Shown here piece after piece: positions 7,453 to 23,997 of a stretch of DNA of 64,000 nucleotides. The translations under genes and the position numbers were made by a program. Below the pieces are notes generated by a model, which searched no databases, was not told the origin of the DNA, and worked only from the letters and a program-made list of their open reading frames with translations. Source of the DNA: Luteitalea sp. Its GTDB lineage: Bacteria; Acidobacteriota; Vicinamibacteria; Vicinamibacterales; Vicinamibacteraceae. Location of the stretch: contig WHTT01000014.1 in the NCBI GenBank assembly GCA_009377605.1, positions 1 through 64,000 on the forward strand. Direction: 5' to 3'. Each line of letters opens with the position of its first letter. Positions within the stretch are counted from its first letter, which is position 1.

Positions 7453-9096
7453 ATGCCGCCAAGAGCGCTGTTCTTCCATGGCCGGCTGCTGGATGTCGAA
7501 GAGGAGCTCGCCAGAGATCCAACGTCGCTCCTGTGCATCGACGGCGCGAGCGTCTTTAACGCGAGCTTTCTGCGCGCGGTGATCGAGCACAGCAATCGTG
7601 AGGAGCTGTATCTTCCACGATTGTCCGGCTCGACGGATCCTGTCGCCCACATCCCAGCCTGGGCAAGGCCACACGCCAAACGGCTGCGATGGATCGACGG
7701 TGACGAATTGCGAGATGTGCTGCGGCGTCGGCAGCTTGTGTTGATGGCGCCCGATCCGTATCTGTGGACGCTCGCCTGTGTCCGCGCGCAGGTGGACGCC
7801 CATGCGTCACCGATCACCGGCGTAATTCACGCCATTCAACCGATCAAACTTGCAAGCTGGCTCAGCAGCCGGATGATGCAACTGCTCCATGAAGCGGATG
7901 CGTTGGTCTGTACGAGCGTGGCAGGCCGGTCAGCCGTGGAGAAGATTGTCGAGGCGCTTCCCACGGCGCTTCGCGGTGCGGAGCGCATCCCATTTCGTAC
8001 TCCAATCATCCCTCTCGGTATCGAGCCTCGGTTGTGCGAAGAACCTGGAAGAGCCAGTGGAGATCAAGAAGCGCGGCCGATCTCGCTGCTCTACGTGGGC
8101 CGCCTGTCCGATACGAACAAAGCGGACCTCGTGCCGATGTTGCTGGCGTTGGGGGATGTGGCTCGGCAGAGGTCTGTTCGACTGACGATAGCTGGCGACG
8201 ACCGAGCGCGGCAGTGCGCCCCTGTGCTCCGTGCGATCGGTGCTGAACTGGGGCTGTCCGAAGTGCTCACGGTCGTGCCAAACGCGAACCACGAGAAAAA
8301 GTGGAAGCTGCTACGCCACGCCGACATCTTTGTATCCCCCGTCGACAACGTACAAGAGACGTTTGGCCTCAGCCTTCTGGAGGCCATGCTGGCGGGGCTT
8401 CCGGTGGTTGCGTCAGACTGGAGCGGCTACCGAGACATTGTCGTACATGGCAGGACAGGCTTTCTCGTACCCACCATGATCGGACGGGCGGATCGAGGAG
8501 ACGAGGGTATCGATATCGCAGGATCATGGCAGCGGAACGCCGAGATGGCCGCGGTCACCTACGTGGACTTCGATTCGTGGAAGCATTACGTTACGCAGCT
8601 CGTGGACGATGCGGAGCTTCGGTCGCGGATGGGCCGTGAGGGACGACGACGCGTGCTCGCCGAGTTCAGCTGGCGAGGCGTCATTGGTGCCTATGAGGCG
8701 CTCTGGACGGAGCTGGAGGCCGGCGCGAAACGGCTGCGGTGTGGCGATCGCCTGCGCCCAAGCTTGCGATTTCATGACGTCTTCGAACACTACGCGAGCG
8801 CGATGCTGGACGATGCCTCGCCGCTGTACTGCCCGGGAGACGACCTCATCCCGAGCCGCGTCGCGCTGGCACGTCGATGGAGAGACACCGCACACGCTGG
8901 ACTACTGGAGGTCCTGTCGCATGTCTGCAGGCGGCCGGGCCTCAGCATCGTGGAGCTGGAGCGAACAACAGGCAAGGCGCGGGACGAGCTGCGAATGGCG
9001 GTGATGCGCCTACTCAAGTACGGCGCCCTGCGAAATGGCGGTCCTCGAGCATGTTCGACCCGGTCGCCTTACGCATCAACGACGGCACGGCCGTAA
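7453..9096 (+). CDS. GT4-type glycosyltransferase with C-terminal winged-helix-like tail
   Basis: 547 residues. The GT-B fold donor half is seen in LLYVGRLSDTNKADLVPMLL and in the E-x7-E motif of ETFGLSLLEAMLAGLPVVAS, which binds the nucleotide sugar. The N-terminal acceptor half is unusual in sequence. The last 75 or so residues (LLEVLSHVCRRPGLSIVELE, then ALRNGG) resemble a winged helix, which is not usual in this family. GAGCGAGGG precedes the start. The neighbours are a small unknown gene (divergent) and a second glycosyltransferase running convergently. The acceptor cannot be told from sequence: surface polysaccharide or a peptide from the nearby clusters are both open. Confidence 0.8.
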   Translation: MPPRALFFHGRLLDVEEELARDPTSLLCIDGASVFNASFLRAVIEHSNREELYLPRLSGSTDPVAHIPAWARPHAKRLRWIDGDELRDVLRRRQLVLMAPDPYLWTLACVRAQVDAHASPITGVIHAIQPIKLASWLSSRMMQLLHEADALVCTSVAGRSAVEKIVEALPTALRGAERIPFRTPIIPLGIEPRLCEEPGRASGDQEARPISLLYVGRLSDTNKADLVPMLLALGDVARQRSVRLTIAGDDRARQCAPVLRAIGAELGLSEVLTVVPNANHEKKWKLLRHADIFVSPVDNVQETFGLSLLEAMLAGLPVVASDWSGYRDIVVHGRTGFLVPTMIGRADRGDEGIDIAGSWQRNAEMAAVTYVDFDSWKHYVTQLVDDAELRSRMGREGRRRVLAEFSWRGVIGAYEALWTELEAGAKRLRCGDRLRPSLRFHDVFEHYASAMLDDASPLYCPGDDLIPSRVALARRWRDTAHAGLLEVLSHVCRRPGLSIVELERTTGKARDELRMAVMRLLKYGALRNGGPRACSTRSPYASTTARP

Positions 9097-9106
9097 CGAC
9101 CGTCCG

Positions 9107-10090
9107 CTAGGGACGTGCGGCCAAGGTCTCCAAGCGAAGGATGGCTCTCCAGGCAGCTTCAACGCTCGCCCGATGTGCGTGCGGCGCATATGGCCTGGCC
9201 CGCTCCTGTCCCAGCCGAGCCAGCTCTTCGAAGCGCCGTGGTGCTTCCGGACGCCTGCTCACGGCATCCTCGATCAGCTGGGTAACCCCGGCCAGGTCTC
9301 CCCACTCGAAAAGCGCCGCAGACGGAAGAATCTCCTGAAGGCTGCCGTTGCGAAAGCCGACCACAACGCACCCACACGCCATGGCTTCTAGCGCAACACG
9401 TCCCAGGCCCTCCTCGGCGCTGAAGAAGACCACGACGAGCGATTCCTGAAGCGTCTGTGCCAGCGCTCCTTCGCCCATGTTCGTGAGCGGCAGCCAGCTC
9501 ACATCCGATGCTTCATTGAGACCTACCGCGGCACGGGACGCGACGATACGGCGCAGGGCTTCAACTGACTGGCGACACTTCGGAACGAAAGCAATCTGTC
9601 GTCGACGCCCCACCCATGGCTTGAAGCCGAAGACGGCCGTGTCAATATGTGGGACAACTCTGATCACAGCGACCTGGGGGTACGCCAATCGCAGGTGCCG
9701 TGCATTGTGTTCGGACATCGCGAGAACGGCCAGAACGTCCGGGTGCCTGTATGGATCTCTGTCCTGGCAGTTCTCGAGGCTTGAAAACCCGCGCCAGAGG
9801 CTCTTGTTGAAGATGATCTTTCGCCCTCGGTACTCTAGGATCCGCGCGCCGAGATCCTCGGGCAACACGACATAATCGCGCTCACAATTCATCAGGCGCG
9901 CGGCCGTTCGCCAGTCGATGACACGCGTAGCATTGTCGAACCAGGTGAGCCTGAACCCTGGCCGATCATGAACGATGTACGCCTCGTATCCGAGGTCGTT
10001 CAGCGCATCGACATGCTTGTAGGTATCCTTCTGACCCCCAACCTGATGCTGATGGCTGTAGCAATGGCAGAATACCTTACACGTCGGCAT
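9107..10090 (-). CDS. GT4-type glycosyltransferase
   Basis: 327 residues starting MPTCKVFCHCYSHQHQVGGQ. The Rossmann-like N-terminal half includes KDTYKHVDALNDLGYEAYIV. The C-terminal half has the retaining GT-B signature E-x7-E in EEGLGRVALEAMACGCVVVG. The gene overlaps the 3' end of the radical SAM gene by 14 bases in the same direction, so the two are almost certainly one operon and translationally coupled. It ends 10 bases from the convergent end of the other glycosyltransferase gene. The substrate is unknown. Confidence 0.8.
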   Translation of the reverse strand: MPTCKVFCHCYSHQHQVGGQKDTYKHVDALNDLGYEAYIVHDRPGFRLTWFDNATRVIDWRTAARLMNCERDYVVLPEDLGARILEYRGRKIIFNKSLWRGFSSLENCQDRDPYRHPDVLAVLAMSEHNARHLRLAYPQVAVIRVVPHIDTAVFGFKPWVGRRRQIAFVPKCRQSVEALRRIVASRAAVGLNEASDVSWLPLTNMGEGALAQTLQESLVVVFFSAEEGLGRVALEAMACGCVVVGFRNGSLQEILPSAALFEWGDLAGVTQLIEDAVSRRPEAPRRFEELARLGQERARPYAPHAHRASVEAAWRAILRLETLAARP

Positions 10091-11414
10091 AGGGAGAGAT
10101 GGCCTCGTCGAAGAAGCAGTCCTCGTTTTGCCAGCTCGATCGATGGCTGCGTGGGCGATAGCGGGAAACGAGATGGTCTCTGTGCTGCCGCAGATCTTCG
10201 GCCGATAGCGCGCACGTTCTCACTTCGTACGCGGTCTGGCCACCCTTTATCCCATAGGCGCCGGTGATCTCACCATCGGAGCCGGCCGGACGGAGCTGCA
10301 AGTCGATCGCAGTTCCATGATCGAGCGCCTGGCGGATGGCGGTTCCCCGGAACGGCATGTAGACGGCACACTGGAAATCGTCGATGCCAGAGTCCCTGAT
10401 GAAGGCTTCCGTTTCGGCAAGCGTGCCCGCATTCTCGCCTGGAAGGCCCAGCAGGATGAAAGCCTTGACCTGGATGCCATATTTCTTTGCATACCGCACC
10501 GTCTGGTAGTTCTGCTCAACCGTGCAACGCTTCTGCACGTTGTCGAGGATGCGTTGACTGCCAGACTCGGCGCCGAAGGCGACCTCCACGCAGCCCGTGT
10601 TGGCAAGGAGCTGCGCCATGTCCTCGCCCCACTTGGTGAAGTATCGCGCCTGGGCGTTGCAGCGATACCAGAGCTCGCGCTTCGAGAGCTGCTGGCAAAT
10701 GGGCTGGATCTTCGGGAGCGAGATGGCGAAGAGATCGTCGAAGATGTAGACCGCACGCCAGCCGGCGGCACGAATATCGTCCAACTGGTGCCCAATGCTG
10801 TCCAGGCTCGACCATCTGACCGCCGTCAGCGCCTCCTCGCAGAAGGTGCATCGCTCGGGGCAGCCGCGCGCCGTCATGAGCGTGGTCGCCGGGCGCCCGC
10901 AGAGCAGATACCGATAACGCCGCAGGATCTGGATGGCGTTGTCGCTGGTTCGATCAGGTCTCGGTTGAGTGGCGATCTCCTCTCGCGTGAGCACGCTCGA
11001 GAGGGTGCGGCTGCTGGCTTGGCCGGCGAGAATGGCCACGAGCGCCTTCTCGCCATCGAGCGGAACCAGAAAGTCGAAGACCGGCTCTCTTGCCAGATCC
11101 TGCCAGTAGTGCTTCACGTGCGGGCCGCCCGCAATGACGGTGGTTCTAGGCGACGCCGCTTTGATGGCTGCCGCCAGTCGAAGTGCCTCGTGTCGCTGGG
11201 GCGTCATGATGCTGATACCCACCGCGTCGTAATCGCGCACCCACGCGAGGTGTTCGACGTCGTAATCGTCATCGCCGACGATGACCCGTGTGTCTGGCAG
11301 ATAGCGCTCCACATAACTCTTCAGGTAGAAGTTTGCCAGCGGCGGATACACTTTCGCATCGTCGAGAAATGGGCTTCGGCAACTCAAGAGGAGGAGATTG
11401 CTGGCTGGAAGCAT
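10077..11414 (-). CDS. B12-binding-domain radical SAM protein
   Basis: About 445 residues from MLPASNLLLLSCRSPFLDDA; an in-frame codon 36 bases upstream exists but adds nothing like the family. The N-terminal cobalamin-binding-like Rossmann domain spans about 5-140 (VGISIMTPQRHEALRLAAAI, VIAGGPHVKHY). The radical SAM core carries the 4Fe-4S motif in ARGCPERCTFCEE and a GAESGSQRILDNVQK segment typical of the class. Family members do methylations or carbon skeleton chemistry on lipids, antibiotics and RiPPs. It is coupled to the glycosyltransferase at 9107-10090. Its upstream region resembles that of the small unknown gene at 6686-7129, which suggests a shared regulon. Confidence 0.85.
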   Translation of the reverse strand: MLPASNLLLLSCRSPFLDDAKVYPPLANFYLKSYVERYLPDTRVIVGDDDYDVEHLAWVRDYDAVGISIMTPQRHEALRLAAAIKAASPRTTVIAGGPHVKHYWQDLAREPVFDFLVPLDGEKALVAILAGQASSRTLSSVLTREEIATQPRPDRTSDNAIQILRRYRYLLCGRPATTLMTARGCPERCTFCEEALTAVRWSSLDSIGHQLDDIRAAGWRAVYIFDDLFAISLPKIQPICQQLSKRELWYRCNAQARYFTKWGEDMAQLLANTGCVEVAFGAESGSQRILDNVQKRCTVEQNYQTVRYAKKYGIQVKAFILLGLPGENAGTLAETEAFIRDSGIDDFQCAVYMPFRGTAIRQALDHGTAIDLQLRPAGSDGEITGAYGIKGGQTAYEVRTCALSAEDLRQHRDHLVSRYRPRSHRSSWQNEDCFFDEAISPYADV

Positions 11415-11514
11415 CGGAACGCCCTGGCGACAGTGAGACACGATTCCCACGCGCCGGTTCGAAGTGCGGATTCGCGCGACGGGCCGGTTCAGCGGACGTC
11501 TCTACGTTCGCGCG

Positions 11515-13678: not shown

Positions 13679-13957
13679 ATGAACGAGGATCGCGTATCCG
13701 TATCGCCGGCCGTGCGAGCGTCGATTTCCGGAGATGGCCTTGTGCTCCTGGACGTGCATGGTGGTCTCCTCTTGACGTCGAATCCGGTTGGCGCACGGAT
13801 CTGGCGGCTGCTCGAACAGCAATGGACGCCTCTCGAGATCGCGCACCAACTGGTCGAGGAATGCGACGTTCCTCTCGAGCGCGTGCATCACGACGTGACA
13901 GCATTCGTCTCGGCGCTCGTGAAGCTGGGTCTGGCGACCGAGGAGGTGACGAGGTGA
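13679..13957 (+). CDS. Lasso-peptide RRE protein (B1, PqqD-like)
   Basis: 92 residues starting MNEDRVSVSPAVRASISGDG, with GGGAG eight bases before the ATG. The sequence has the PqqD/RRE winged-helix pattern: a beta hairpin (LVLLDVHGGLLLTSNPVGAR), then IWRLLEQQWTPLEIAHQLVE, then a helical pair ending VSALVKLGLATEE. In lasso systems this domain binds the precursor leader and hands it to the protease. The stop codon overlaps the GTG start of the protease gene (GTGA), so B1 and B2 are a split version of the fused B protein found in some Proteobacteria. Confidence 0.9.
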   Translation: MNEDRVSVSPAVRASISGDGLVLLDVHGGLLLTSNPVGARIWRLLEQQWTPLEIAHQLVEECDVPLERVHHDVTAFVSALVKLGLATEEVTR

Positions 13958-14358
13958 CGCGGCGCGCCGTGCGCCAGGCCCACCGGCTCGCCATACTGAC
14001 CGGCCACGCATGGCTCGGTCTCGTCGCGTTCGACGTTGCGCGGCTGGCTGGGTTCGCTCGCCTACACGAGTCGCTGCGTCGCTATCGGGCGCGCCGCCGC
14101 GAGGGTGATGGTCCTGGCATCGACGACCTGGTTTGGGCGATCGATGAAGCCTGCGTCTGGTACGTGAAGCGTGCGGCCTGCTTACAGCGCTCGGCAGTTG
14201 CGACCTGGCTGCTCCGGCGGCATGGCTTTGCCGCGGAGCTGGTCATCGGATATCGGCCGATTCCATTCGAGTCGCACGCCTGGGTGGAAGTAGATGGCCT
14301 GGTCGTCAACGACCGGCCGCAATACAAGAAGTTCTTTGCGGTGTTGGAACGTCTCTGA
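13954..14358 (+). CDS. Lasso-peptide leader protease (B2, transglutaminase-like)
   Basis: 134 residues from a GTG that overlaps the B1 stop; AGGAGG lies just upstream. The typical lasso B2 catalytic residues are visible: Cys76 in RAACLQRSAVATWLLRRHG, His108 in SHAWVEVDG and Asp120 in VVNDRP. The enzyme removes the leader peptide from the precursor, using ATP indirectly through the cyclase complex. Length and motifs match the split B2 family. It is followed after 19 bases by the cyclase gene. Confidence 0.9.
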   Translation: MTRRAVRQAHRLAILTGHAWLGLVAFDVARLAGFARLHESLRRYRARRREGDGPGIDDLVWAIDEACVWYVKRAACLQRSAVATWLLRRHGFAAELVIGYRPIPFESHAWVEVDGLVVNDRPQYKKFFAVLERL

Positions 14359-14377: not shown

Positions 14378-16273
14378 ATGGCAGCGTTGGCGGGATCTCT
14401 CTTCTTCGATCGGCGCCCAACCGAGAACGAATGCTCATCGCTGGTTGCTGCGCTCCAGCCGATGACGCCCGATGGTGTCTCGGTGCATGCCGAGCCGGGC
14501 CTGGTGATGGTGCATGGCGCATTCGACGTCTGGGCGGGCGAGCGGTCGGCGCAACAACCTGCACGCTCATCGTCCGGGCTCGTCATGACCTGGGACGGCC
14601 GGCTCGACAACCGCGACGATCTGCTGCTGCGGCTCAGCGGAAGGCTCGGGAACGATGCAAGTGACGACGCGATTGCGCTGTCGACATTCGAACGGTGGGG
14701 CGTGGAAGGTTTGCGCTTGCTCATTGGCGATTGGAGCCTCGTGATATGGGACAGCAGGCAGCGGACGCTTCATTTGGCGCGCGACTACATGGGAGTCAGG
14801 CCGCTCTATTACCTCGCCGATTCCCAGGCGATCATGTGGTCCAGCAGCCTCGGCGAGCTGGCGATACGTGCCGATCGAGCGGACGCGCTGGACGAAGCCT
14901 TCGTCGCACGATTCATGGCCCTTCAGTTCTCGACCGACGTGACCCCTTACCAAGGCATTCGCGGAGTGCCGACGGCAACCTGCGTGTCGTTCTCGCCGGA
15001 AGGTGCGGAGACAAGGCAGCGCTTCTGGCACCTGCAGCCAGGCCTCACCCGCTACCGCGACAAGGGGCAGTACGAAGAGCATCTTCGGGCGCTATGGATC
15101 GAGGCCGTCGGGTCGCGCCTGCGGGCTGAAGGCACGGTATGGGCGGAGCTGAGCGGCGGCCTGGATTCGTCGTCTGTGGTCTGCATCGCGGACGCGCTCA
15201 TCAAAGCCGGGCGCGTGACGGCGAGTGCCATTCAACCGCTGTCGCATGTCACGCTGAAGTCACCGGAAGGCGACGAGAGACGGTTCATCGCGGAGGTGGA
15301 AGCTCGCGTCGGCGTTCCTAGTGAAGTCATTGGCGTGGAGGACCATCAGGATCTGGTTGACTCCGAATGGGACTGGGTGTCGCCCTTTGCCGCCCGCGGC
15401 GTGGGGCTGGCAATGGTGCGGCATGTGACTCGACGAGGAGGGCGAGCAATCCTCTCTGGACGTGTGGGCGACACGGTCATGGGTTGTCTGCCAGATAACA
15501 GCCTGGCCGTGCTGGACGACTTCGAGCAGGGCAGCGTGATTACCGCGCTGGCCAAGATGCGGCGGTGGTGTCGCGCGACCCAGAAGCCGTTCGTTGAGAT
15601 CGCCTGGGGTCTCGCCGTTGCGTATTGGCACGCGGGGCTCACGAAAACCACTCAGGGGCATCTGAATGAGTCGCAGCAGGCAGGTCTCGACCTCGTCACG
15701 CCGCGATTCCAGCTTCTGGTACGGGGAGATACGTCGGTTGCCAGCGCATTCTCGAGAGTGACGCCGTCCAAGTGCCGCCTTGCTTCGTCGGTGCTCGCGT
15801 ATTCGTTGACGGGGCGCTTGAACATTCCCATCCTTCCGCCAGGCGTGATCCACACATACCCATTCGTCCATCGGCCGCTTGTCGAGTACATCCTGGCCAT
15901 TCCCGGTGAAGAGCTGAGCGCGCCTGGCGAGACGCGGTCCCTCATGCGTCGTGCGTTCGAAGGCTTGGTCCCAGAGAGGATCCTGCGGCGCACGTCGAAG
16001 GGCCACTACGCCCCAGCAGCCACGCGCGCCGCTCGCCCGCTTGCCGCCTCGATGTTGCCGGTCGAGCGCCTCGAAGTGGTTCGGCGCGGTTGGATTGACC
16101 CTCAGAAGCTCGAGGCGATGATTCACATGCTCGTTCACGGCGGCGGCCGCACAGGGGTGGACGTACGACGGGTGTTGCGCTTGGAACAGTGGCTGACATC
16201 ACGAGATCGGCGGGGGCCCGCCGCAATGCCAAAACGAAAGGAGGTGATAACCAATGCGATACGAAGCGCCTGA
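14378..16273 (+). CDS. Lasso-peptide cyclase (C, asparagine-synthetase-like)
   Basis: 631 residues. The N-terminal glutaminase-like domain spans about 1-220 but begins MAAL, so the Cys2 nucleophile of true asparagine synthetases is missing, as in lasso cyclases. The synthetase domain has the ATP PP-loop SGGLDSSSV from residue 259, and later RGVGLAMVRHVTRRGGRAIL and GRVGDTVMG. It would adenylate a Glu or Asp side chain of the core and close the macrolactam on the N-terminal amine. The 3' end overlaps the precursor gene by 20 bases, and the precursor's ribosome-binding site lies inside this reading frame. Confidence 0.9.
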   Translation: MAALAGSLFFDRRPTENECSSLVAALQPMTPDGVSVHAEPGLVMVHGAFDVWAGERSAQQPARSSSGLVMTWDGRLDNRDDLLLRLSGRLGNDASDDAIALSTFERWGVEGLRLLIGDWSLVIWDSRQRTLHLARDYMGVRPLYYLADSQAIMWSSSLGELAIRADRADALDEAFVARFMALQFSTDVTPYQGIRGVPTATCVSFSPEGAETRQRFWHLQPGLTRYRDKGQYEEHLRALWIEAVGSRLRAEGTVWAELSGGLDSSSVVCIADALIKAGRVTASAIQPLSHVTLKSPEGDERRFIAEVEARVGVPSEVIGVEDHQDLVDSEWDWVSPFAARGVGLAMVRHVTRRGGRAILSGRVGDTVMGCLPDNSLAVLDDFEQGSVITALAKMRRWCRATQKPFVEIAWGLAVAYWHAGLTKTTQGHLNESQQAGLDLVTPRFQLLVRGDTSVASAFSRVTPSKCRLASSVLAYSLTGRLNIPILPPGVIHTYPFVHRPLVEYILAIPGEELSAPGETRSLMRRAFEGLVPERILRRTSKGHYAPAATRAARPLAASMLPVERLEVVRRGWIDPQKLEAMIHMLVHGGGRTGVDVRRVLRLEQWLTSRDRRGPAAMPKRKEVITNAIRSA

Positions 16274-16397
16274 GCTCATCATGCTCGGTCCGGCACCACT
16301 CGTGGTGCTGGGGACCCGCGAGCCCGGAGAGGACGACAACGGCAGCTCCCAGGTCTCTCGGCCAGAGCCTGGCATCGCACTCGGTCTCGACGACTGA
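16254..16397 (+). CDS. Lasso-peptide precursor (A)
   Basis: 47 residues. The ATG follows AAAGGAGGTGATAACCA, an exceptionally complete match to the anti-Shine-Dalgarno. The leader starts MRYEAPELIMLGPAPLVVLG and carries the Y-x2-P-x-L...G pattern recognised by lasso B1 proteins. The rest is acidic and flexible (TREPGEDDNGSSQVS, then RPEPGIALGLDD). If Gly20 is core residue 1, Glu7, Asp8 and Asp9 of the core all fall in the ring-closing window and the core is 28 residues long. Using Thr21 as the usual -2 Thr leaves no acid at positions 7-9, so that cut is unlikely. The gene sits after the cyclase, unlike the common A-first order. Confidence 0.8.
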   Translation: MRYEAPELIMLGPAPLVVLGTREPGEDDNGSSQVSRPEPGIALGLDD

Positions 16398-16460
16398 GTG
16401 TTCTCTCGACCTACCCTCGCCTTCGGTGTGCGCAGCCGAGGGCGAGGGCCCTTGCAACGC

Positions 16461-17798
16461 ATGCGACAGATGCTGCACCTGCTCGCTATCGATCCCGACC
16501 GTCGTGCCGCGCTCGCGTCGTGGCACAAGGCGCGATGGGCGTTGCCAATCGCCTGCTGCTCGGAGTGGGCGCGATCCGGGCCGCTGGTGTCTCAGTGGCT
16601 GGCGGATCGTGGCCTGGCCGGCGTGCTGATCGGGCAATGGCTCGGACGCCTGTCGCTTGAGGCGGATGCCGTCGATTGGCTGGCCGTTGCACACGTGTCC
16701 GCACTGCGAGCCGTGGCCCCGGCAATGTCCTGGACACCGATTGAGTCGCTGAGGTCTCCAGACTCCCTGCTCGAATACCAGCGGTGGGCGGTTTCGCAGG
16801 CGATGTGCAGCGGGGAGCTCCCCTGCGTGCCTGGCCCGTTCGGAAAGCCAACCTGGTTCGAGGAGGTGAAGACCTGGACTTGCAGCGCCGTGGGCGCGTC
16901 TGACGCATCGCATGTGGTGTCATACCGAGCCACGCCGTACGAGGTCGTGCTGGGCGTTTCGACGCCGCGCGGTCGAGTGTACTTTAAGGGCTTCTCTTCG
17001 GATCGGGCGTCGGAAGCAAGCATTACGCGAGCTCTGTCGGAGCTCGCACCGGGCGCGTTCCCCCGTACGCTGGCACTGGAACAGAGAAGCAATGGGTCGG
17101 TGTGGTGGGTCACCGAGGAGTGCCCTGGCCCTTCGCTCGCGCGAAGCGTTACGCGAGACCGTGCGGCACGTTCTGGCGCAGCCTGTGCACACTTGCAACA
17201 GCGGCTCGCCGACTATTTGAGCCGCGAAAACGGTCTGGCGATGCCTAACGTCGATCTTGGTAGGCTTTCTGCTTGGGGAAGGGAAATCCTACGTCATTCA
17301 TATCAGGAAGAAGCTATAGGTACCCATTTCACTGCGATCACGCGCGCCTGCGAGGAGGTGGGAGCGGCCAACGTCGTGCACAGCCTCGTCCCGGCCGATC
17401 TACATCCGAGCAACATTGTCGTGACCGATGACGCCGTCCGATTCATCGACCTGGACGAGGCGCACATCGGCCCGTCGCCGCTCGCGGTATCGATCTTGGT
17501 GCGGCGACTGGCACGAGCGCAGCGAAGTCGCTCCGCTCACTCTATGTTGCGCAATGCGCTCTATTCCGTGTATGAGCGCGCCTGGTCGTCCCCGTGTCAG
17601 ATGGCTGGTCGCTGGCCAGCCTTCGAGGCCGTCTCGGCTCTTCTCGAGGCATATCTGGGATGGACCCGCGTCGTGAGAAAGACGGAACGTGGCGAAATCT
17701 ACGGCGTGCTCGATCTTGCCAAAGAGCGAACAGCGCAGCGACTCGTGGAGACGTTCAGTGCCGAGCACTCTGAACGCTGGGATCAATCGAAGCGATAG
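16461..17798 (+). CDS. Aminoglycoside-phosphotransferase-like kinase of the lasso locus
   Basis: About 445 residues from the ATG at 16461; an in-frame GTG at 16398, directly after the precursor stop, would add 21 residues. The first 140 or so residues are helical and unassigned. A kinase N-lobe follows (VLGVSTPRGRVYFKGFSSDR). The C-lobe carries PADLHPSNIVV and RFIDLDEA, corresponding to the HxDxxxxN and metal-binding Asp motifs of APH/choline-kinase folds, except that the first His is Pro. The catalytic Asp (about 313) and the Asn remain. It is co-directional with and close to the precursor gene, so a tailoring kinase acting on a core Ser or Thr is plausible. Known lasso kinases are HPr-kinase-like, not of this fold. 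It ends in a 16-base convergent overlap with the S8 peptidase gene. Confidence 0.65.
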   Translation: MRQMLHLLAIDPDRRAALASWHKARWALPIACCSEWARSGPLVSQWLADRGLAGVLIGQWLGRLSLEADAVDWLAVAHVSALRAVAPAMSWTPIESLRSPDSLLEYQRWAVSQAMCSGELPCVPGPFGKPTWFEEVKTWTCSAVGASDASHVVSYRATPYEVVLGVSTPRGRVYFKGFSSDRASEASITRALSELAPGAFPRTLALEQRSNGSVWWVTEECPGPSLARSVTRDRAARSGAACAHLQQRLADYLSRENGLAMPNVDLGRLSAWGREILRHSYQEEAIGTHFTAITRACEEVGAANVVHSLVPADLHPSNIVVTDDAVRFIDLDEAHIGPSPLAVSILVRRLARAQRSRSAHSMLRNALYSVYERAWSSPCQMAGRWPAFEAVSALLEAYLGWTRVVRKTERGEIYGVLDLAKERTAQRLVETFSAEHSERWDQSKR

Positions 17799-20700
17799 AC
17801 CATCGTTCCAACCGCCGACGGGCGGTCCCTCAGCTTGGGAATGCGCTTTCGATTCTCCCACGGGTGTCGTGCCTCATCACGCTCCATGGCACCGTCGATC
17901 AGCTCACAGAGCAGCACGCGCACATGCCCCGGCTCGGCCGACGGCGCCGAAGGGAGCTTTACGGTTTCGGTCCACTTCGCGCCTGGCTGGCGTGGGCCGC
18001 TTCGCGAGGACGCGTGGCGCTGCGCCTTCGTCGTGATGATCTCGTCCAACACAAATTTACCGGTCTTCGTTGGAAACGGCGCCGTATTGACAGCAGCGAT
18101 CCAGCGTCCCGCCCGGGGCCGTCTGACCACGAGTCTCTGCTCCTTCGCGGCTGGCAGCGTGAAATTGTCAGAAAAACACTCTCCGGACGAGCAGTCGTAC
18201 AAATACAGCTCCAGAGGGTCCGGTTCGGTATCCACGCCGCGGAGATGCAGGGCGAGGGTTGCAGCACCTTCCGGAACGTCGATCTCGAACTGGTTCGGTA
18301 GCCCCGCCGGAAGAAGCTCCCCATGGTGACGCTTGAGCGTACCGACCGACGTTTCGAGGACTGGCTCTGTGAGCTGGCCACCGCGGTTCTCGACGTCGAT
18401 CTCGAGCACGCCATGACCGGCGGAGGCTGGCCTGAGCGATGTTCTCAGGAGCCGCGCGGTGAGGGCGTACTCTGCCTCGTCCGTCGACACGAGCTCTGGA
18501 TTGTCTTCGGTCCGCGCACTGGTATTGCTCACACTGATCGTCCAGGTGCCAGCCGCAGGGTTGGGCATGGCAAGGTGATACGTGCCTTTCGGGAACGTGC
18601 GTCCGCCCAGTGGGTACGCGTGACCATAGTAGTTGGGATACAAACCGTGGCTCGGCACGATGCTTGCCCGGACGGAGCCACTGACCACTTTCAGCTCGAT
18701 GCTCAGCGTGGCCACACCTTCCGGTACTGTCAGATAGTGTGTGTTCGTGCGCATCAACGGGGCCGACCCGCTCAAGCGGAGCGTGGCGTCAGGCGCGTCG
18801 AAGCGCTCGGTTGCTACTAGCGTGGCTTGCGTCCTGAAAACGATGGCATCGGTGGCCGGATCGTGCAGATTGAGAATCGCGCTGTGGGCGCCTGTGGACG
18901 CGAGGGCGATGGCCACCGGCAGAGAGGTCGTCTGGTTCAGCGGCAGCGTGAGGGAGCGTTGTGTCGAAAACGTGCCATCATTGCCGGTCCAACTCAAGCG
19001 ATACGTGACCGCGCTGTCAGCGCCTGATTGACGTTGAAAGTGAATGGTGCGCCGACCTCTCATGCCGGCGCTCCAACCCTCACGCTCGAAGATGCCTACG
19101 CCTTTGTGTCCATGCGCCGCGTACGGTGCCAAGGGATGCACAATCTTTGCAGTGGCTTGAATCCGTGGTATCTCGATGGGACGCTTGAGCTCCCGCCAGG
19201 CGGCGTTCACGTCGAGAACGCCGTTACCTTGCTGATGTGACGGCCATCCAGCGAGAAACCGTGCGCCGACGCGCAACGCACGGCCGAGGGTCGGAACCGT
19301 GTAACTGACATGCTCCTGTTTGGCCGCGCTCAGGAGGAGCGCCGCCACTCCGGCGGCGTAGGGACCGCTGGCAGACGTGCAGCAACTGATCTGGTAACCT
19401 GGCGGGAACTTCGCTGTTGGTGCGTTCTTCGGGATCTGAAGGGCCACGCTGTCGTTCCACACATCCGCGGCGATGCGGTGTACGGGCGCGAGGAAATCCG
19501 GCTTGAGAGCGCCATCGAGTGACGGCCCAGACGCGCCGACCGGATGGAGCATAAGACCACCCAGAGTACCGCCCCCATAGAGAGCCGCGAACGTCTGCGG
19601 CCCGATCGAGCCGCCAACTGAGAAGACGTCACCAAGTGACGCCACGCTGTTGAGCCAGAGCTGCATGTTACCAGCACTGTTGAAAATCGGCTTTCCATGG
19701 ACGGCAACCATCCGTCGAAAGAAGAGGCCCGTGAAGTCGGCCGCCGTGTCCGGCACCATGACGATGCCCGCTGCCGTGCCAATGAGGTCGACGTCCGGTC
19801 GTTTGATGGTGTCCAGGTAGCTTTCCAGGAGCGTGTGCAGCCCAGAGAACGTGGAGGACCTCCGGACCAGCAACACTCGCGCGCCTGGCGCGACGCCATA
19901 CGCCAAGCCATCCTCGGTCTTGCTGCCGGCGGCGACGCTGAGCGTCATGGCCTGATGGCCACCCCGTGACGTATAGATGTGCACCGTGTGAGGTGCGCGC
20001 CCTGCCGCCACGACGAAGCTCAGATCAACTGGTTCGGGGTGCGTCAGCTTCAGGGCGCGGACATCGAGCTCCTCGTTGGCGTCCGTGACCGGCGTCTCGT
20101 CTCTAAAATCTGCGTTTCCGTTCGCGTCAACCCAGATATCACCGCTGGCCTCCTCCCGAAGGACGCCATACTCATGAATGAGATTGACCGCAGCCGGCAG
20201 GCGGAAGAGACCAAACCTGTAGCGGCCGGGTCGAGGCACGGCGTACGTCCGGTCTCCTATTTTCTGCCACGCGTGTGTGGCGTGGACCTCTGTGGAGAGC
20301 TCGACGCGCGTGGTATCCCCTTGGTCTGGGCCGATCGCACTGAGAATACCGGCGAGCTTTGGGATCTCACGTCCATCGAGCGTCTTGGCGCTGTGGAGCG
20401 TTGGATGGCGAAACTCCGGGAGAGCGCTTTCGAGGATTGCAATCGTGACCCCGCGGCCATCGTATGTCGGGTGCTTCTGGAACCACTCCGTCAAGCCGAC
20501 ATCCTCGTCGGCCGTATAGCCGCTCTCACGCGCTCGCGTCGCTGAAAGGAAGGGTAACTCGCGGCCCTCAACCGGCTTCCGCCGCACGTTCGGTATAACT
20601 CTTTCGTATTCGCGAAATAGCTCGGCGTTTTCTTGCGGCGGTCCGTCGCGATACCAACTCGCCTTGGACATCGAGGATATTTGGTACGCTTCTATGCGGT

Positions 20701-21109
20701 CGTCCGCGACCAGGTCGGTGAGCTTCTCGATAGGCACCTCCGCGCGCACGTAACGGATGTCCTCATCCGCGCGTTGTACTCGTCCGCCAAGGCGCTCCAC
20801 TCGCGCGGATGTTGCTGTGAGCCCGTTGTCCGTGACGAGAAGCATGACCTCCAATGCCCGGAGTCCGCTGACCGCAGCGCGGTTCAGCAGTAAGCGGTTG
20901 TGAAAAGACATCCGTTGTGTTTCCGCCTCGGTGGGTGCAATCAGGGCAATCACGGACACGACCGTAAGCCCCACCAAGAGGCAAGATACAGTTGCCGCGC
21001 ACACGATAGGCTGGTGGCGCGTGGCCCGAGCCGCGAGACTGCGCGCGGCCTCTGCGACCCGGTGTCGCTGTGTGTTATTGATTGAAGACCGCCTGATGCG
21101 TAGAGACAT
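17783..21109 (-). CDS. Membrane-anchored S8 (subtilisin-like) peptidase with altered catalytic Asp
   Basis: 1108 residues. A membrane segment lies at about 34-58 (CAATVSCLLVGLTVVSVIAL). The S8 domain runs from about 215 to 640. The Asp motif is replaced by VTIAILESALPEF, with Glu227 where Asp is expected. The His motif is GGHQAMTLSVAAG (His385), the oxyanion Asn lies in FNSAGN, and the Ser motif is CTSASGPYAAGVAALLL (Ser579). About 450 C-terminal residues look like beta-sandwich modules. It follows the TonB-dependent receptor gene by 11 bases on the same strand, and its end overlaps the lasso kinase gene convergently. A role in degrading or opening an imported peptide, analogous to lasso isopeptidases, is an inference; a general secreted peptidase is the alternative. 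Confidence 0.8.
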   Translation of the reverse strand: MSLRIRRSSINNTQRHRVAEAARSLAARATRHQPIVCAATVSCLLVGLTVVSVIALIAPTEAETQRMSFHNRLLLNRAAVSGLRALEVMLLVTDNGLTATSARVERLGGRVQRADEDIRYVRAEVPIEKLTDLVADDRIEAYQISSMSKASWYRDGPPQENAELFREYERVIPNVRRKPVEGRELPFLSATRARESGYTADEDVGLTEWFQKHPTYDGRGVTIAILESALPEFRHPTLHSAKTLDGREIPKLAGILSAIGPDQGDTTRVELSTEVHATHAWQKIGDRTYAVPRPGRYRFGLFRLPAAVNLIHEYGVLREEASGDIWVDANGNADFRDETPVTDANEELDVRALKLTHPEPVDLSFVVAAGRAPHTVHIYTSRGGHQAMTLSVAAGSKTEDGLAYGVAPGARVLLVRRSSTFSGLHTLLESYLDTIKRPDVDLIGTAAGIVMVPDTAADFTGLFFRRMVAVHGKPIFNSAGNMQLWLNSVASLGDVFSVGGSIGPQTFAALYGGGTLGGLMLHPVGASGPSLDGALKPDFLAPVHRIAADVWNDSVALQIPKNAPTAKFPPGYQISCCTSASGPYAAGVAALLLSAAKQEHVSYTVPTLGRALRVGARFLAGWPSHQQGNGVLDVNAAWRELKRPIEIPRIQATAKIVHPLAPYAAHGHKGVGIFEREGWSAGMRGRRTIHFQRQSGADSAVTYRLSWTGNDGTFSTQRSLTLPLNQTTSLPVAIALASTGAHSAILNLHDPATDAIVFRTQATLVATERFDAPDATLRLSGSAPLMRTNTHYLTVPEGVATLSIELKVVSGSVRASIVPSHGLYPNYYGHAYPLGGRTFPKGTYHLAMPNPAAGTWTISVSNTSARTEDNPELVSTDEAEYALTARLLRTSLRPASAGHGVLEIDVENRGGQLTEPVLETSVGTLKRHHGELLPAGLPNQFEIDVPEGAATLALHLRGVDTEPDPLELYLYDCSSGECFSDNFTLPAAKEQRLVVRRPRAGRWIAAVNTAPFPTKTGKFVLDEIITTKAQRHASSRSGPRQPGAKWTETVKLPSAPSAEPGHVRVLLCELIDGAMERDEARHPWENRKRIPKLRDRPSAVGTMVYRFD

Positions 21110-21120
21110 ATGTGATCGCT

Positions 21121-23997
21121 TCAGTATGAGAGCCGGAGGACGAGCTGGGCCGAGCGTGGGAGTTGCCTGAACGTCGTCGAGCCAAAGAGCGGATTGAACG
21201 TCTCGGTCGCCCCACTCTCGAAGCTCAAGTCGGCGCCGTTATTGGTGACGTTGAAGACGTCCAGGCCCGCATCGAGCGTGAGCGCACGCCACAAGAATCG
21301 GCGACCGATGCGCACGTTCCACGTGTGGAGTGTCGGTGTCCGCAACTGGCCCTCGCCCCGCGTCGGAAACGCAAAGCGGAGCGTTGTCGCAAGCGGATTG
21401 GCGACGACGCGGCCATTCGAAAGCGTGACGGTCTCCGGCCCGAATGCGGGGTCCGGTGAGTCGAGGCTCGAGATGATGGGTCCGGACCACGCGCCTGACT
21501 GGAACGCATAGGTACTGGCAAGGAGAAGCTGCCACGGTCCAGTGTAGGTAACGCCGACCCTCACGATGTGGTTCTGCCACTGCGCGCTGCCGGTGCCGCG
21601 CTGGCTCATGTGCCCATCGGAGAGGCTGTTCGCGTCGGTCGATGGCGTGCCGGTGGAGCCGGTTGGGCTGCCGATGCCCTTGTCGTTGGCAAACGCCTGT
21701 GGCTGGATGAACGCAGCGGGGTCGTTCGGCTGCCAGGTGCCGGCTATGTGCCGCCACTGCCGGACGTAGCTCGCGATCCCTTCGAGGCGGGCCGTGCGCT
21801 TTGTCAGCGCGACCTCGAACGAGCTGTAAACAGGCGAGTTCCATTGGTTGTTCGTTGCCAGGTAGAGCTCGTTGAACGCTTCGTCCTCGTATCCGACAAA
21901 GCTGTTGTCCCGGTACTGAGCATTCGTCTCCACGAAGGTGAGCCGATCGCGGAACCGGCGGCGCACGACGTCCACTCGGGCCGTGACGTTGCCACCAAGT
22001 TGCGTCTCATAACCCGTTCCCCATTCGTGAATGAACGGTTGGTGGAGATTCCGATCGATCGTCCTGTCCGGGCGTACAGCGAGGGTGGCTGGCGTCTCAT
22101 AGACGGTTTCGAACGTCCCATCGAGATCGAGGTCGTACAGGTCGCGCCGGCCCAATGCCGACGTCCCAGCGGATATGCGCGTTTGGGAAGGGTGGTCGTG
22201 AACTCGTACCCAATGCGCCCGGACCACGTTGCGCCCGTTCCTGGTCAGCGCGTAGTTGACGCCAAGACGGGGGCCAATCTCGGTCGTGCGCTGCGTCGTG
22301 ACATCGAAGAGACGATCTGTCCACGCGATGCGATCGATTCGGATGCCAGCGTTGATCGTGAGGTTGACGATGGGGCGCCAGGCGTCCTGGACGTAGACGG
22401 CGAGGTCTTCACCTTCCCGCCGAGAGTTGGTCAGCTCGGTGCCATCGACAATCTGGCGATGAAATGGTTGAACCGTGCCGTCCAGGACGCTCGGCTCGCG
22501 AAGCACGGCTTCTTCGAAGACGAACCCGTCGTTGACATAGAAGGTACGAAGACCGACCTCGATACGCGGCTGCGCGTAAGCGCCGACCTGGAGCTCGTGA
22601 GATCCGAGTAGATGACTGGCGAAGAGGGTGGCATCGAACGACAAGGTGAGCTTGGAATTGGGTTGTTCGTTCCAGGCCGTCACGGGCGAGTCCAAATTGG
22701 CGAGCCGGCCATTGCCGACGAGGCGGCCACCCGACGGAATCGTGTCCTGAAAGACGCGTCGCAACGGTTCGTCAATTCCAGGGTCTCTGTCGTCGTTGCG
22801 CTTGTCGTTGTAGCTCGCGCCAAAGCGGGTCGTCAGCCGGTCTGACCAGATCGATGACAACCGGACGGAGGCTCCATTGCCGCCCGCCGCCTCAGTAGTT
22901 GGGTGCTCGACCACGGCGGTCGCGGACGTGACCGGATTGACGTCTCGTTGATAGAACCCCTCCAGTCGATGCGCGTTGGATAATTGGCCATTGAGCTTGG
23001 TGAACCAGAAATGCGCCTCGTTTGTGCCGTCGAACGGCGCAAACCCGGGAACCAACGCGCGCAGCGCCTCGAGCTCCGTTGAGGTGCGGCTGATCCCATT
23101 CTCGACGTCGACGTAGCGATAAGCCCCGAACGCCCACAGGCGATCTCTCACAACCGGTCCGCCGAGCGACAAGTCCACGTGGCGCTGATCTACCGTGCTG
23201 CTCGTGCCCCCGGGCGTGTTGGAGGCGTTCCAGGCGCGTGGCTGGAGAAACGCGCTTGTCGTGCCGCGGAGCTCGTTCGTGCCGCTGGCCGTCGCAATGT
23301 TGATGACACCGCCCACGCCCAAGGGAGACGACGCATCCACGCCGGCAGTCTTGACTTGAATGTCGTCGATCAGGTCCGTATTCAATCCTATGTAGCCGAC
23401 GCCGGAGAGAAGGGCTGGAGCCACGTCTGCGCCATCGATCTGTATGACGTTGGTGTTGGCGGCGGCGCCATGAACGTAGAAGAACTTCTCGTTGTTCGCC
23501 CATTCGGCGGTCGTCACGCCGGGCGCCAAGGTTAGCGCGCCAAACCACTCCCGGCGTTCTGACAGTGGCATCGAGCGAAGCAGCCTCCCGCTGATCTGAA
23601 CCGACTGCCCTGCGTTCTGTGTTTCGAGGAGGGGAGTCTCTTGCGTGACCTCGACCGTCTCGTCGATGGAACCGATCGTCATCACGATATTGAGGTCTCG
23701 ATTGCCGCCGGCCCGCACGGTGACGCGAGATTCAGGCGACTCGAAGCTCGGGAGCGTTGCGACAATGACGTAGTCGCCTGGTGGAAGGTCCAGGAGGCGG
23801 TATGAGCCGTCACTATGCGTTGTCGCCGCGTGGATGCCAGGAACAGTCTCGCTCGTTGCAACGATGGAGACACCGGGGAGCACCGCACCCTGTTCATCCG
23901 CCACGACACCTCGAACGCTCCCGTTCGCCGTCGTCTGAGCATGCACGGACGACGCGGAGAGAAGCGCAAGGAACAACAGGCTGGAAATGCGGTACAT
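21121..23997 (-). CDS. TonB-dependent receptor with N-terminal carboxypeptidase-like regulatory domain
   Basis: 958 residues. A signal peptide (MYRISSLLFLALLSASSVHA) leads into a CarboxypepD_reg domain (GVVADEQGAVLPGVSIVATS), then a plug (SMPLSERREWFGALTLAPGV, VIQIDGADVAPALLSGVGYI) and a long barrel. The protein ends SAQLVLRLSY, with the C-terminal aromatic residue typical of outer-membrane barrels. It should import a substrate with TonB energy. It forms an operon with the S8 peptidase and runs towards the lasso genes. Exporter-less proteobacterial lasso clusters often carry such a receptor, so a lasso peptide is a reasonable candidate ligand. Acidobacterial genomes hold many such receptors, so chance adjacency is possible. 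Confidence 0.9.
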   Translation of the reverse strand: MYRISSLLFLALLSASSVHAQTTANGSVRGVVADEQGAVLPGVSIVATSETVPGIHAATTHSDGSYRLLDLPPGDYVIVATLPSFESPESRVTVRAGGNRDLNIVMTIGSIDETVEVTQETPLLETQNAGQSVQISGRLLRSMPLSERREWFGALTLAPGVTTAEWANNEKFFYVHGAAANTNVIQIDGADVAPALLSGVGYIGLNTDLIDDIQVKTAGVDASSPLGVGGVINIATASGTNELRGTTSAFLQPRAWNASNTPGGTSSTVDQRHVDLSLGGPVVRDRLWAFGAYRYVDVENGISRTSTELEALRALVPGFAPFDGTNEAHFWFTKLNGQLSNAHRLEGFYQRDVNPVTSATAVVEHPTTEAAGGNGASVRLSSIWSDRLTTRFGASYNDKRNDDRDPGIDEPLRRVFQDTIPSGGRLVGNGRLANLDSPVTAWNEQPNSKLTLSFDATLFASHLLGSHELQVGAYAQPRIEVGLRTFYVNDGFVFEEAVLREPSVLDGTVQPFHRQIVDGTELTNSRREGEDLAVYVQDAWRPIVNLTINAGIRIDRIAWTDRLFDVTTQRTTEIGPRLGVNYALTRNGRNVVRAHWVRVHDHPSQTRISAGTSALGRRDLYDLDLDGTFETVYETPATLAVRPDRTIDRNLHQPFIHEWGTGYETQLGGNVTARVDVVRRRFRDRLTFVETNAQYRDNSFVGYEDEAFNELYLATNNQWNSPVYSSFEVALTKRTARLEGIASYVRQWRHIAGTWQPNDPAAFIQPQAFANDKGIGSPTGSTGTPSTDANSLSDGHMSQRGTGSAQWQNHIVRVGVTYTGPWQLLLASTYAFQSGAWSGPIISSLDSPDPAFGPETVTLSNGRVVANPLATTLRFAFPTRGEGQLRTPTLHTWNVRIGRRFLWRALTLDAGLDVFNVTNNGADLSFESGATETFNPLFGSTTFRQLPRSAQLVLRLSY

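Follow-up and report, generated by a model that had tools for sequence, protein, structure and literature searches.

Does the kinase-like gene that directly follows a lasso peptide precursor gene in Luteitalea sp. act on the encoded peptide, and what does it mean that a proline occupies the place of the usual histidine in its catalytic loop? Both questions are raised by gene K, which lies in a stretch of 64,000 nucleotides that was analysed as a whole (the window).

A lasso peptide cluster with an adjoining kinase gene

The genes of the locus are arranged in the order B1-B2-C-A-K (Table 1). With a precursor carrying a YxxPxL leader, B1, B2 and the cyclase C side by side, this is by gene content a complete lasso cluster, whose threaded lasso product is predicted from the genes. 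B2 scored 78.1 bits with the NCBIfam model lasso_biosyn_B2 (cut-off 33) and matched Pfam Transglut_core3 (E 4.4e-23); the best NCBIfam match of C was lass_lactam_cya (E 5.2e-68, under the cut-off of this model). Judged by its sequence, the core GTREPGEDDNGSSQVSRPEPGIALGLDD could be cyclised between Gly1 and Asp9 (or Asp8), and the Asp9 column is invariant in the alignment of the window precursor and eight homologues.

K is an open reading frame of 445 codons with an ATG start and no internal stop. An in-frame GTG at 16398 is situated upstream of this ATG, and four homologues align from the ATG. A preliminary description of the locus had placed K 63 bases after the precursor and in the same direction, which was borne out to the base, and had called it fused to the lasso locus, which was wrong: K is a separate gene adjoining the precursor gene. 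Pfam APH (PF01636) was matched by K with an E-value of 4.5e-9 and 36.9 bits against a curated cut-off of 23.2, which assigns it to this superfamily, and by 29 of 34 K homologues at E <= 0.01.

Hairpins were predicted in the homologous A-K spacers of all five clusters of this type described below (50-64 nt, z -2.71 to -4.03), and the element probably acts as an attenuator or as a stabiliser, setting the ratio of precursor to enzyme. The hairpin sequences differ between the window and loci L004, L005, L012 and L013. A hairpin is also present behind the precursor of a cluster devoid of a kinase gene (L119 816-903).

Table 1. Positions of the lasso cluster genes, candidate acceptor codons and neighbouring genes in the window.
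Feature	Position	Strand	Remarks
Lasso B1, PqqD-like RRE protein	13679..13957	+	Pfam PqqD E 6.8e-15; NCBIfam lasso PqqD below cut-off
Lasso B2, leader peptidase; its GTG start codon overlaps the B1 stop	13954..14358	+	
Lasso C, asparagine-synthetase-like cyclase, 631 aa	14378..16273	+	Pfam Asn_synthase E 8.6e-30
Precursor A, MRYEAPELIMLGPAPLVVL / GTREPGEDDNGSSQVSRPEPGIALGLDD, leader Y-x-x-P-x-L and Val(-2)	16254..16397	+	
Codon of core Ser13, candidate phosphate acceptor	16347..16349	+	column 6 S + 3 T
Codon of core Ser16, candidate phosphate acceptor	16356..16358	+	column 7 S + 2 T
Precursor-kinase spacer with 14-bp hairpin	16398..16460	+	MFE -30.2 kcal/mol, z -2.74
Kinase K, 445 aa: predicted degenerate Nudix fold (1-120), then APH-fold kinase (about 125-445)	16461..17798	+	Pfam APH, AlphaFold model, fold searches
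Catalytic loop V-P-A-D-L-H-P-S-N, residues 310-318 (P311, D313, N318)	17388..17414	+	
Convergent S8-like peptidase	17783..21109	-	Pfam Peptidase_S8 E 3.6e-7
Outer-membrane beta-barrel, TonB-receptor-like	21121..23997	-	Pfam OMP_b-brl_4 E 3.2e-27

Relatives of K accompany lasso genes in two acidobacterial branches

A profile of K identified five positive genomes among 162 of the same order, and a profile of the window-type precursor identified the same five of the 162 at strong scores, a sixth match being at chance level (E 0.005). Extension of the search to 193 genomes of the class yielded no further K-bearing genome. K follows the precursor at a distance of 50-64 nt in 5/5 of these genomes, which make up the window clade; two of them are of modest quality, and as clade members are related and non-independent, such counts overstate independence.

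A divergent branch of K was detected in lasso clusters of one other Acidobacteriota family (20/150 genomes). While a contig scan with patterns derived from three sequences was too narrow and returned no relatives, adding the Acidobacteriaceae branch gave 36 loci, from Silvibacterium, Edaphobacter, Granulicella, Terriglobus, Candidatus Acidiferrum and others, including a weak match in a Capsulimonas MAG (L203). In these loci of GTDB genomes B1 is located directly upstream of K in 34 of the 36 and a C gene is found on the same fragment in 30; B1 adjoins K in most of the Acidobacteriaceae hits as well. The two branches of K share about 15-20% identity and differ in the tails of their precursors. 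Co-occurrence together with adjacency implies that the association of K with lasso genes is not due to chance, and the preliminary description was right to treat the gene as lasso-linked, since the family recurs next to lasso genes in both branches.

Catalytic residues are retained around the catalytic-loop proline

The loop sequence PADLHPSN, with Pro for the usual His, had been read correctly in the preliminary description, and it is followed by F-I-D-L-D at residues 328-332. Among 34 aligned K homologues Lys176, Glu185, Asp313 and Asp330 are invariant, likewise Trp132 and Tyr371, and Asn318 is present in 32 and kept throughout the window clade. K thus has the Lys, Glu, catalytic Asp, Asn and metal Asp of the APH kinase fold, in agreement with what had been noted earlier for the last three, and departs in Pro311 from the His that usually opens the HxDxxxxN loop, a feature outside the curated definition of PF01636. 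The first HxD position is filled by His in 28 homologues, Pro in 5 and Leu in 1. Those with Pro are exactly the five members of the window clade, and the lone Leu-bearing homologue retains the remaining catalytic residues. The role of this His in protein-kinase-like folds is to support the loop, not to act as catalytic base. Pro is therefore fixed in a single clade, at a site where substitution has also occurred elsewhere, and the residues of phosphate transfer never change. The suggestion of a non-phosphoryl role is unsupported by this pattern of an invariant Lys, Glu, Asp and Asp and a clade-wide Pro at a family-variable residue.

The kinase gene at L013 5417-6556 has an open frame, but the segment that joins the N lobe to the catalytic loop is shorter by about 55-60 residues. 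It represents a decaying gene or an assembly artefact, and not every copy of K need be active.

A degenerate Nudix fold precedes the predicted kinase domain

An AlphaFold model of K, run with the 34-row alignment, reached a pLDDT of 91.6 and a pTM of 0.90. The ATP site, for which structure prediction had been proposed as a check, looks intact in the model and by residue conservation. In fold searches, K from about residue 123 onwards matched small-molecule kinases of the APH fold, namely the amicoumacin kinase AmiN (Z 19.5), homoserine kinase (19.2) and YihE (18.8), followed by choline kinases (about Z 18) and corramycin phosphotransferase (17.4); LxmK, from the pathway of the class V lanthipeptide lexapeptide, aligned with the K model over 277 residues with Z 16.9 and an rmsd of 5.0. 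Residues 1-120 alone gave a pLDDT of 89.9 and a match list with Nudix domains throughout (Z up to 13.1). Since this part is Nudix-like in fold and the Nudix box GX5EX7REUXEEXGU was found in 0/34 K homologues, K is best modelled as a degenerate Nudix fold joined to an APH/choline-kinase fold.

At the sequence level, phmmer with the single K protein gave no match among PDB sequences, and the 34-row profile gave weak APH-kinase matches and one weak Nudix match; no match to LxmK appeared among its 60 best PDB hits. A search of viral contigs with the K protein was likewise negative.

Conserved hydroxyl residues in the precursor tails

If K modifies the precursor, acceptor residues should stand out among its homologues. 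In window-type precursors exactly two core columns (32 and 35, which hold core Ser13 and Ser16 of the window precursor) are restricted to Ser or Thr in 9/9 sequences, neighbouring columns being varied, and the two residues interchange within both columns. In the other branch, a conserved Tyr lies close to the acidic end, and all 46 distinct precursors place a Ser or Thr 4-5 residues ahead of it; 41 do so at -4, where Thr and Ser again interchange. Other tail positions are Ser/Thr in no more than 30% of these 46. The search pattern behind the 46 specified a leader motif, plus an acidic end for some of the sequences, and did not include Ser/Thr. Concordantly, the idea of a target other than the C-terminal residue gains support, as the conserved Ser/Thr are internal and none is found at the C-terminus. 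These positions could alternatively be kept for the lasso fold or for target binding. Several precursors of the other branch, among them those of L069, L117, L070 and L116, lack Gly1, or have neither Asp nor Glu at core positions 7-9.

Val(-2) is present in 9/9 window-type precursors and Ile/Val(-2) in 46/46 of the other branch. As Ile/Val at this position has been linked to phosphorylated lasso peptides (PMC10368454), we counted this match for a kinase function. The genome that holds the window encodes a second lasso cluster on contig C102 (L119 1-5346). Its precursor, MKYEKPKLYELASALSIVR / GIPPVGLDSPDPGERLEGLEVGLDD, has retained Val(-2) and the terminal GLDD and lacks the Ser/Thr pair. No kinase related to K is encoded within 20 kb of this single control cluster, and the joint absence of pair and kinase was likewise counted for a kinase function. 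Val(-2) alone does not imply a kinase, as this single case indicates, and the C102 cluster does not follow the reported rule that clusters with Ile/Val(-2) precursors, those of Acidobacteriaceae included, encode "a kinase or phosphotransferase" (PMC10368454). A 531-aa gene upstream of B1 in the C102 cluster was considered as a kinase and rejected, being not APH and having at most a weak HTH match.

K as a putative Ser/Thr kinase of the lasso precursor

We consider K to be, with a probability of roughly 0.7, an active Ser/Thr kinase with an APH/choline-kinase fold and a Nudix head, and its substrate to be the core of the lasso precursor in linear form. It would modify Ser13 and/or Ser16, the most likely acceptors, before or during maturation by B1, B2 and C. 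Mg-ATP would be bound by Lys176/Glu185 and Asp330 and the acceptor hydroxyl activated by Asp313, with Pro311 in place of a supporting His that the chemistry would not need. The Nudix fold, its hydrolase motif lost, probably holds the leader, the B1 protein or the core. The simplest account appears to be that K phosphorylates Ser/Thr of the precursor under guidance by the leader. It would parallel PadeK and BsfK, lasso precursor kinases of unrelated fold (PMC9266682; PMC10368454), and CaoK, an APH-like enzyme with in vitro kinase activity on Ser/Thr residues of a RiPP precursor (PMC9486802).

The fold neighbours of K also allow a different substrate stage. Corramycin phosphotransferase, the amicoumacin kinase AmiN and aminoglycoside kinases, which are nearest in fold, would suit an enzyme that phosphorylates the mature lasso peptide, as self-protection or late tailoring, and keeps it inactive in the producer in the manner of antibiotic-modifying kinases. 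However, K of the other branch is directly coupled to the leader-binding B1, in keeping with a step that acts on the precursor under guidance by the leader, and K is accompanied by the Ile/Val(-2) feature of the leader; we therefore regard action on the mature peptide as unlikely.

The altered loop could instead mark K as a pseudokinase or scaffold that, with its catalytic-loop His lost, only binds ATP and assists B1 and C. Pro in 5/5 clade members and the internal deletion in L013 point in this direction, but the complete conservation of Lys, Glu, catalytic Asp and metal Asp (34/34), the Asn kept in the clade, the otherwise unaltered catalytic residues of the Leu-bearing homologue and the conserved Ser/Thr acceptors of the window clade make it quite improbable.

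Phosphate might also be an intermediate that a lyase eliminates to form dehydro-residues, as happens in lanthipeptides of classes V and III. The LxmK-like fold, a weak LanKC similarity in NCBIfam and the conserved hydroxyls would be in line with this route. A HopA1-type lyase (PF17914) was found in 0/12 kinase-bearing genomes, however, which makes elimination quite improbable, and the N-terminal domain of K has a Nudix fold rather than a lyase fold. That K is a housekeeping APH-like kinase adjacent by chance, as might be argued because APH-like genes are common in bacteria, is contradicted by exclusive co-occurrence and adjacency over two branches and is hardly credible.

Beyond the individual enzyme, we lean towards the view that lasso-precursor kinases comprise a second class of independent evolutionary origin, represented by the family of K. 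This class would combine an APH fold, a dead Nudix domain as docking module for substrate or B1, and fixed internal tail Ser/Thr as acceptors in place of the C-terminal Ser or Ser3, with one branch functioning in the absence of the catalytic-loop His.

Relation to known kinases and lasso clusters

The association of K with lasso genes is already in the literature as annotation. The metagenomic lasso cluster BGC 482.1 from Acidobacteria contains an "aminoglycoside phosphotransferase family protein" gene of 1404 bp that is listed as kinase, and its expression gave no product (PMC9064862). This gene resembles K in family and length, and the layout B1-K-B2-C-A is that of the sister branch; it was listed and not analysed, whereas in the window branch K follows A, Pro replaces His and the precursor tail differs. 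Acidobacteriaceae bacterium TAA 166, cited for an Ile(-2) lasso precursor (PMC10368454), holds a member of the K family (L170). In the searchable non-subscription literature we found no functional study of any K member, no Nudix fold in connection with lasso peptides, no conserved acceptor positions and no clade with a His-to-Pro change.

The HPr-kinase-like enzymes PadeK, ThcoK, SyanK, PsmK and BsfK share with the proposed role of K the phosphorylation of lasso precursors and belong to an unrelated protein family. That reported lasso kinases are HPr-kinase-like, as stated in the preliminary description, agrees with the searchable literature, where lasso phosphorylation is known only from such enzymes; that they act on a C-terminal Ser was incomplete, as BsfK acts on Ser3 (PMC10368454). 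The candidate acceptors of K, in contrast to both, are internal Ser/Thr of the tail. BsfA likewise carries Ile(-2) in its leader and is phosphorylated faster in the presence of B1 (PMC10368454). No HPr-kinase-like (P-loop) domain was detected in K, Pfam returning only APH matches up to E 1, and the HPr kinases of the window clade, one per genome in 4/5 genomes, are located on other contigs.

CaoK and LxmK (LanK) have the APH fold in common with K, and CaoK is itself a Ser/Thr kinase of a RiPP precursor. Unlike class V LanK, K has a Nudix head, resides in a lasso cluster and, in the 12 genomes mentioned above, has no LanY partner of the HopA1 type. With Nudix hydrolases, residues 1-120 share the fold but not the Nudix box. 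K is best read as a candidate analogue of the class V lanthipeptide kinase CaoK that has no homology to the HPr-kinase-like enzymes acting on lasso precursors. If true, a widespread APH-type family with clear candidate acceptors would show that lasso phosphorylation evolved more than once, and would extend APH-type RiPP kinases from class V lanthipeptides to lasso peptides. The precursors would offer simple, testable substrates from Acidobacteriota, a phylum with mostly uncharacterised peptides, and the fixed Pro would probe the extent to which the APH fold depends on the HxD histidine.

Genes accompanying the clusters

The five window-clade clusters are syntenic, with regulators, a sigma-54 activator, B1, B2, C, one or two A genes and K, and where the contig reaches, synteny continues with the convergent S8-like peptidase gene and the outer-membrane barrel gene. 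Homologues of the peptidase occupy the same place in L004 (3478-9998, two copies), L005 (10203-13424), L012 (6295-9507) and L013, that is, in five clusters including the window; it is likely linked to the cluster and may, by analogy, be a counterpart of the S9 isopeptidases of proteobacterial lasso clusters. In the window protein the first triad residue is Glu (ILES), where Asp is usual. The barrel gene has homologues in L005 and L012 and a partial one in L004. Positions 7453-11450 of the window, between the sigma factor gene and the sigma-54 activator, contain two glycosyltransferase-like genes and one for a B12-binding radical SAM protein; this stretch is missing at the corresponding place in L004 and L005.

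In the divergent branch, L080 (4470-6491), L072, L116 and L117 carry an S9 prolyl-oligopeptidase gene (about 675 aa) between K and B2 and an outer-membrane barrel gene downstream; a possible interpretation is an isopeptidase plus uptake set in Acidobacteriota. A gene of 525-556 aa is found upstream of B1 in L069 (3127-4740), L070 (8635-10305), L072 (1064-2677) and L116 (378-1955). The products of these genes in Acidobacteriaceae clusters are 33-50% identical to each other and unmatched by the kinase profile, and are perhaps regulators. A 543-aa APH protein encoded 2.2 kb upstream of B1 in L060 was also unmatched by the kinase profile and not counted; by eye, it has an apparent receiver-like N-terminus.
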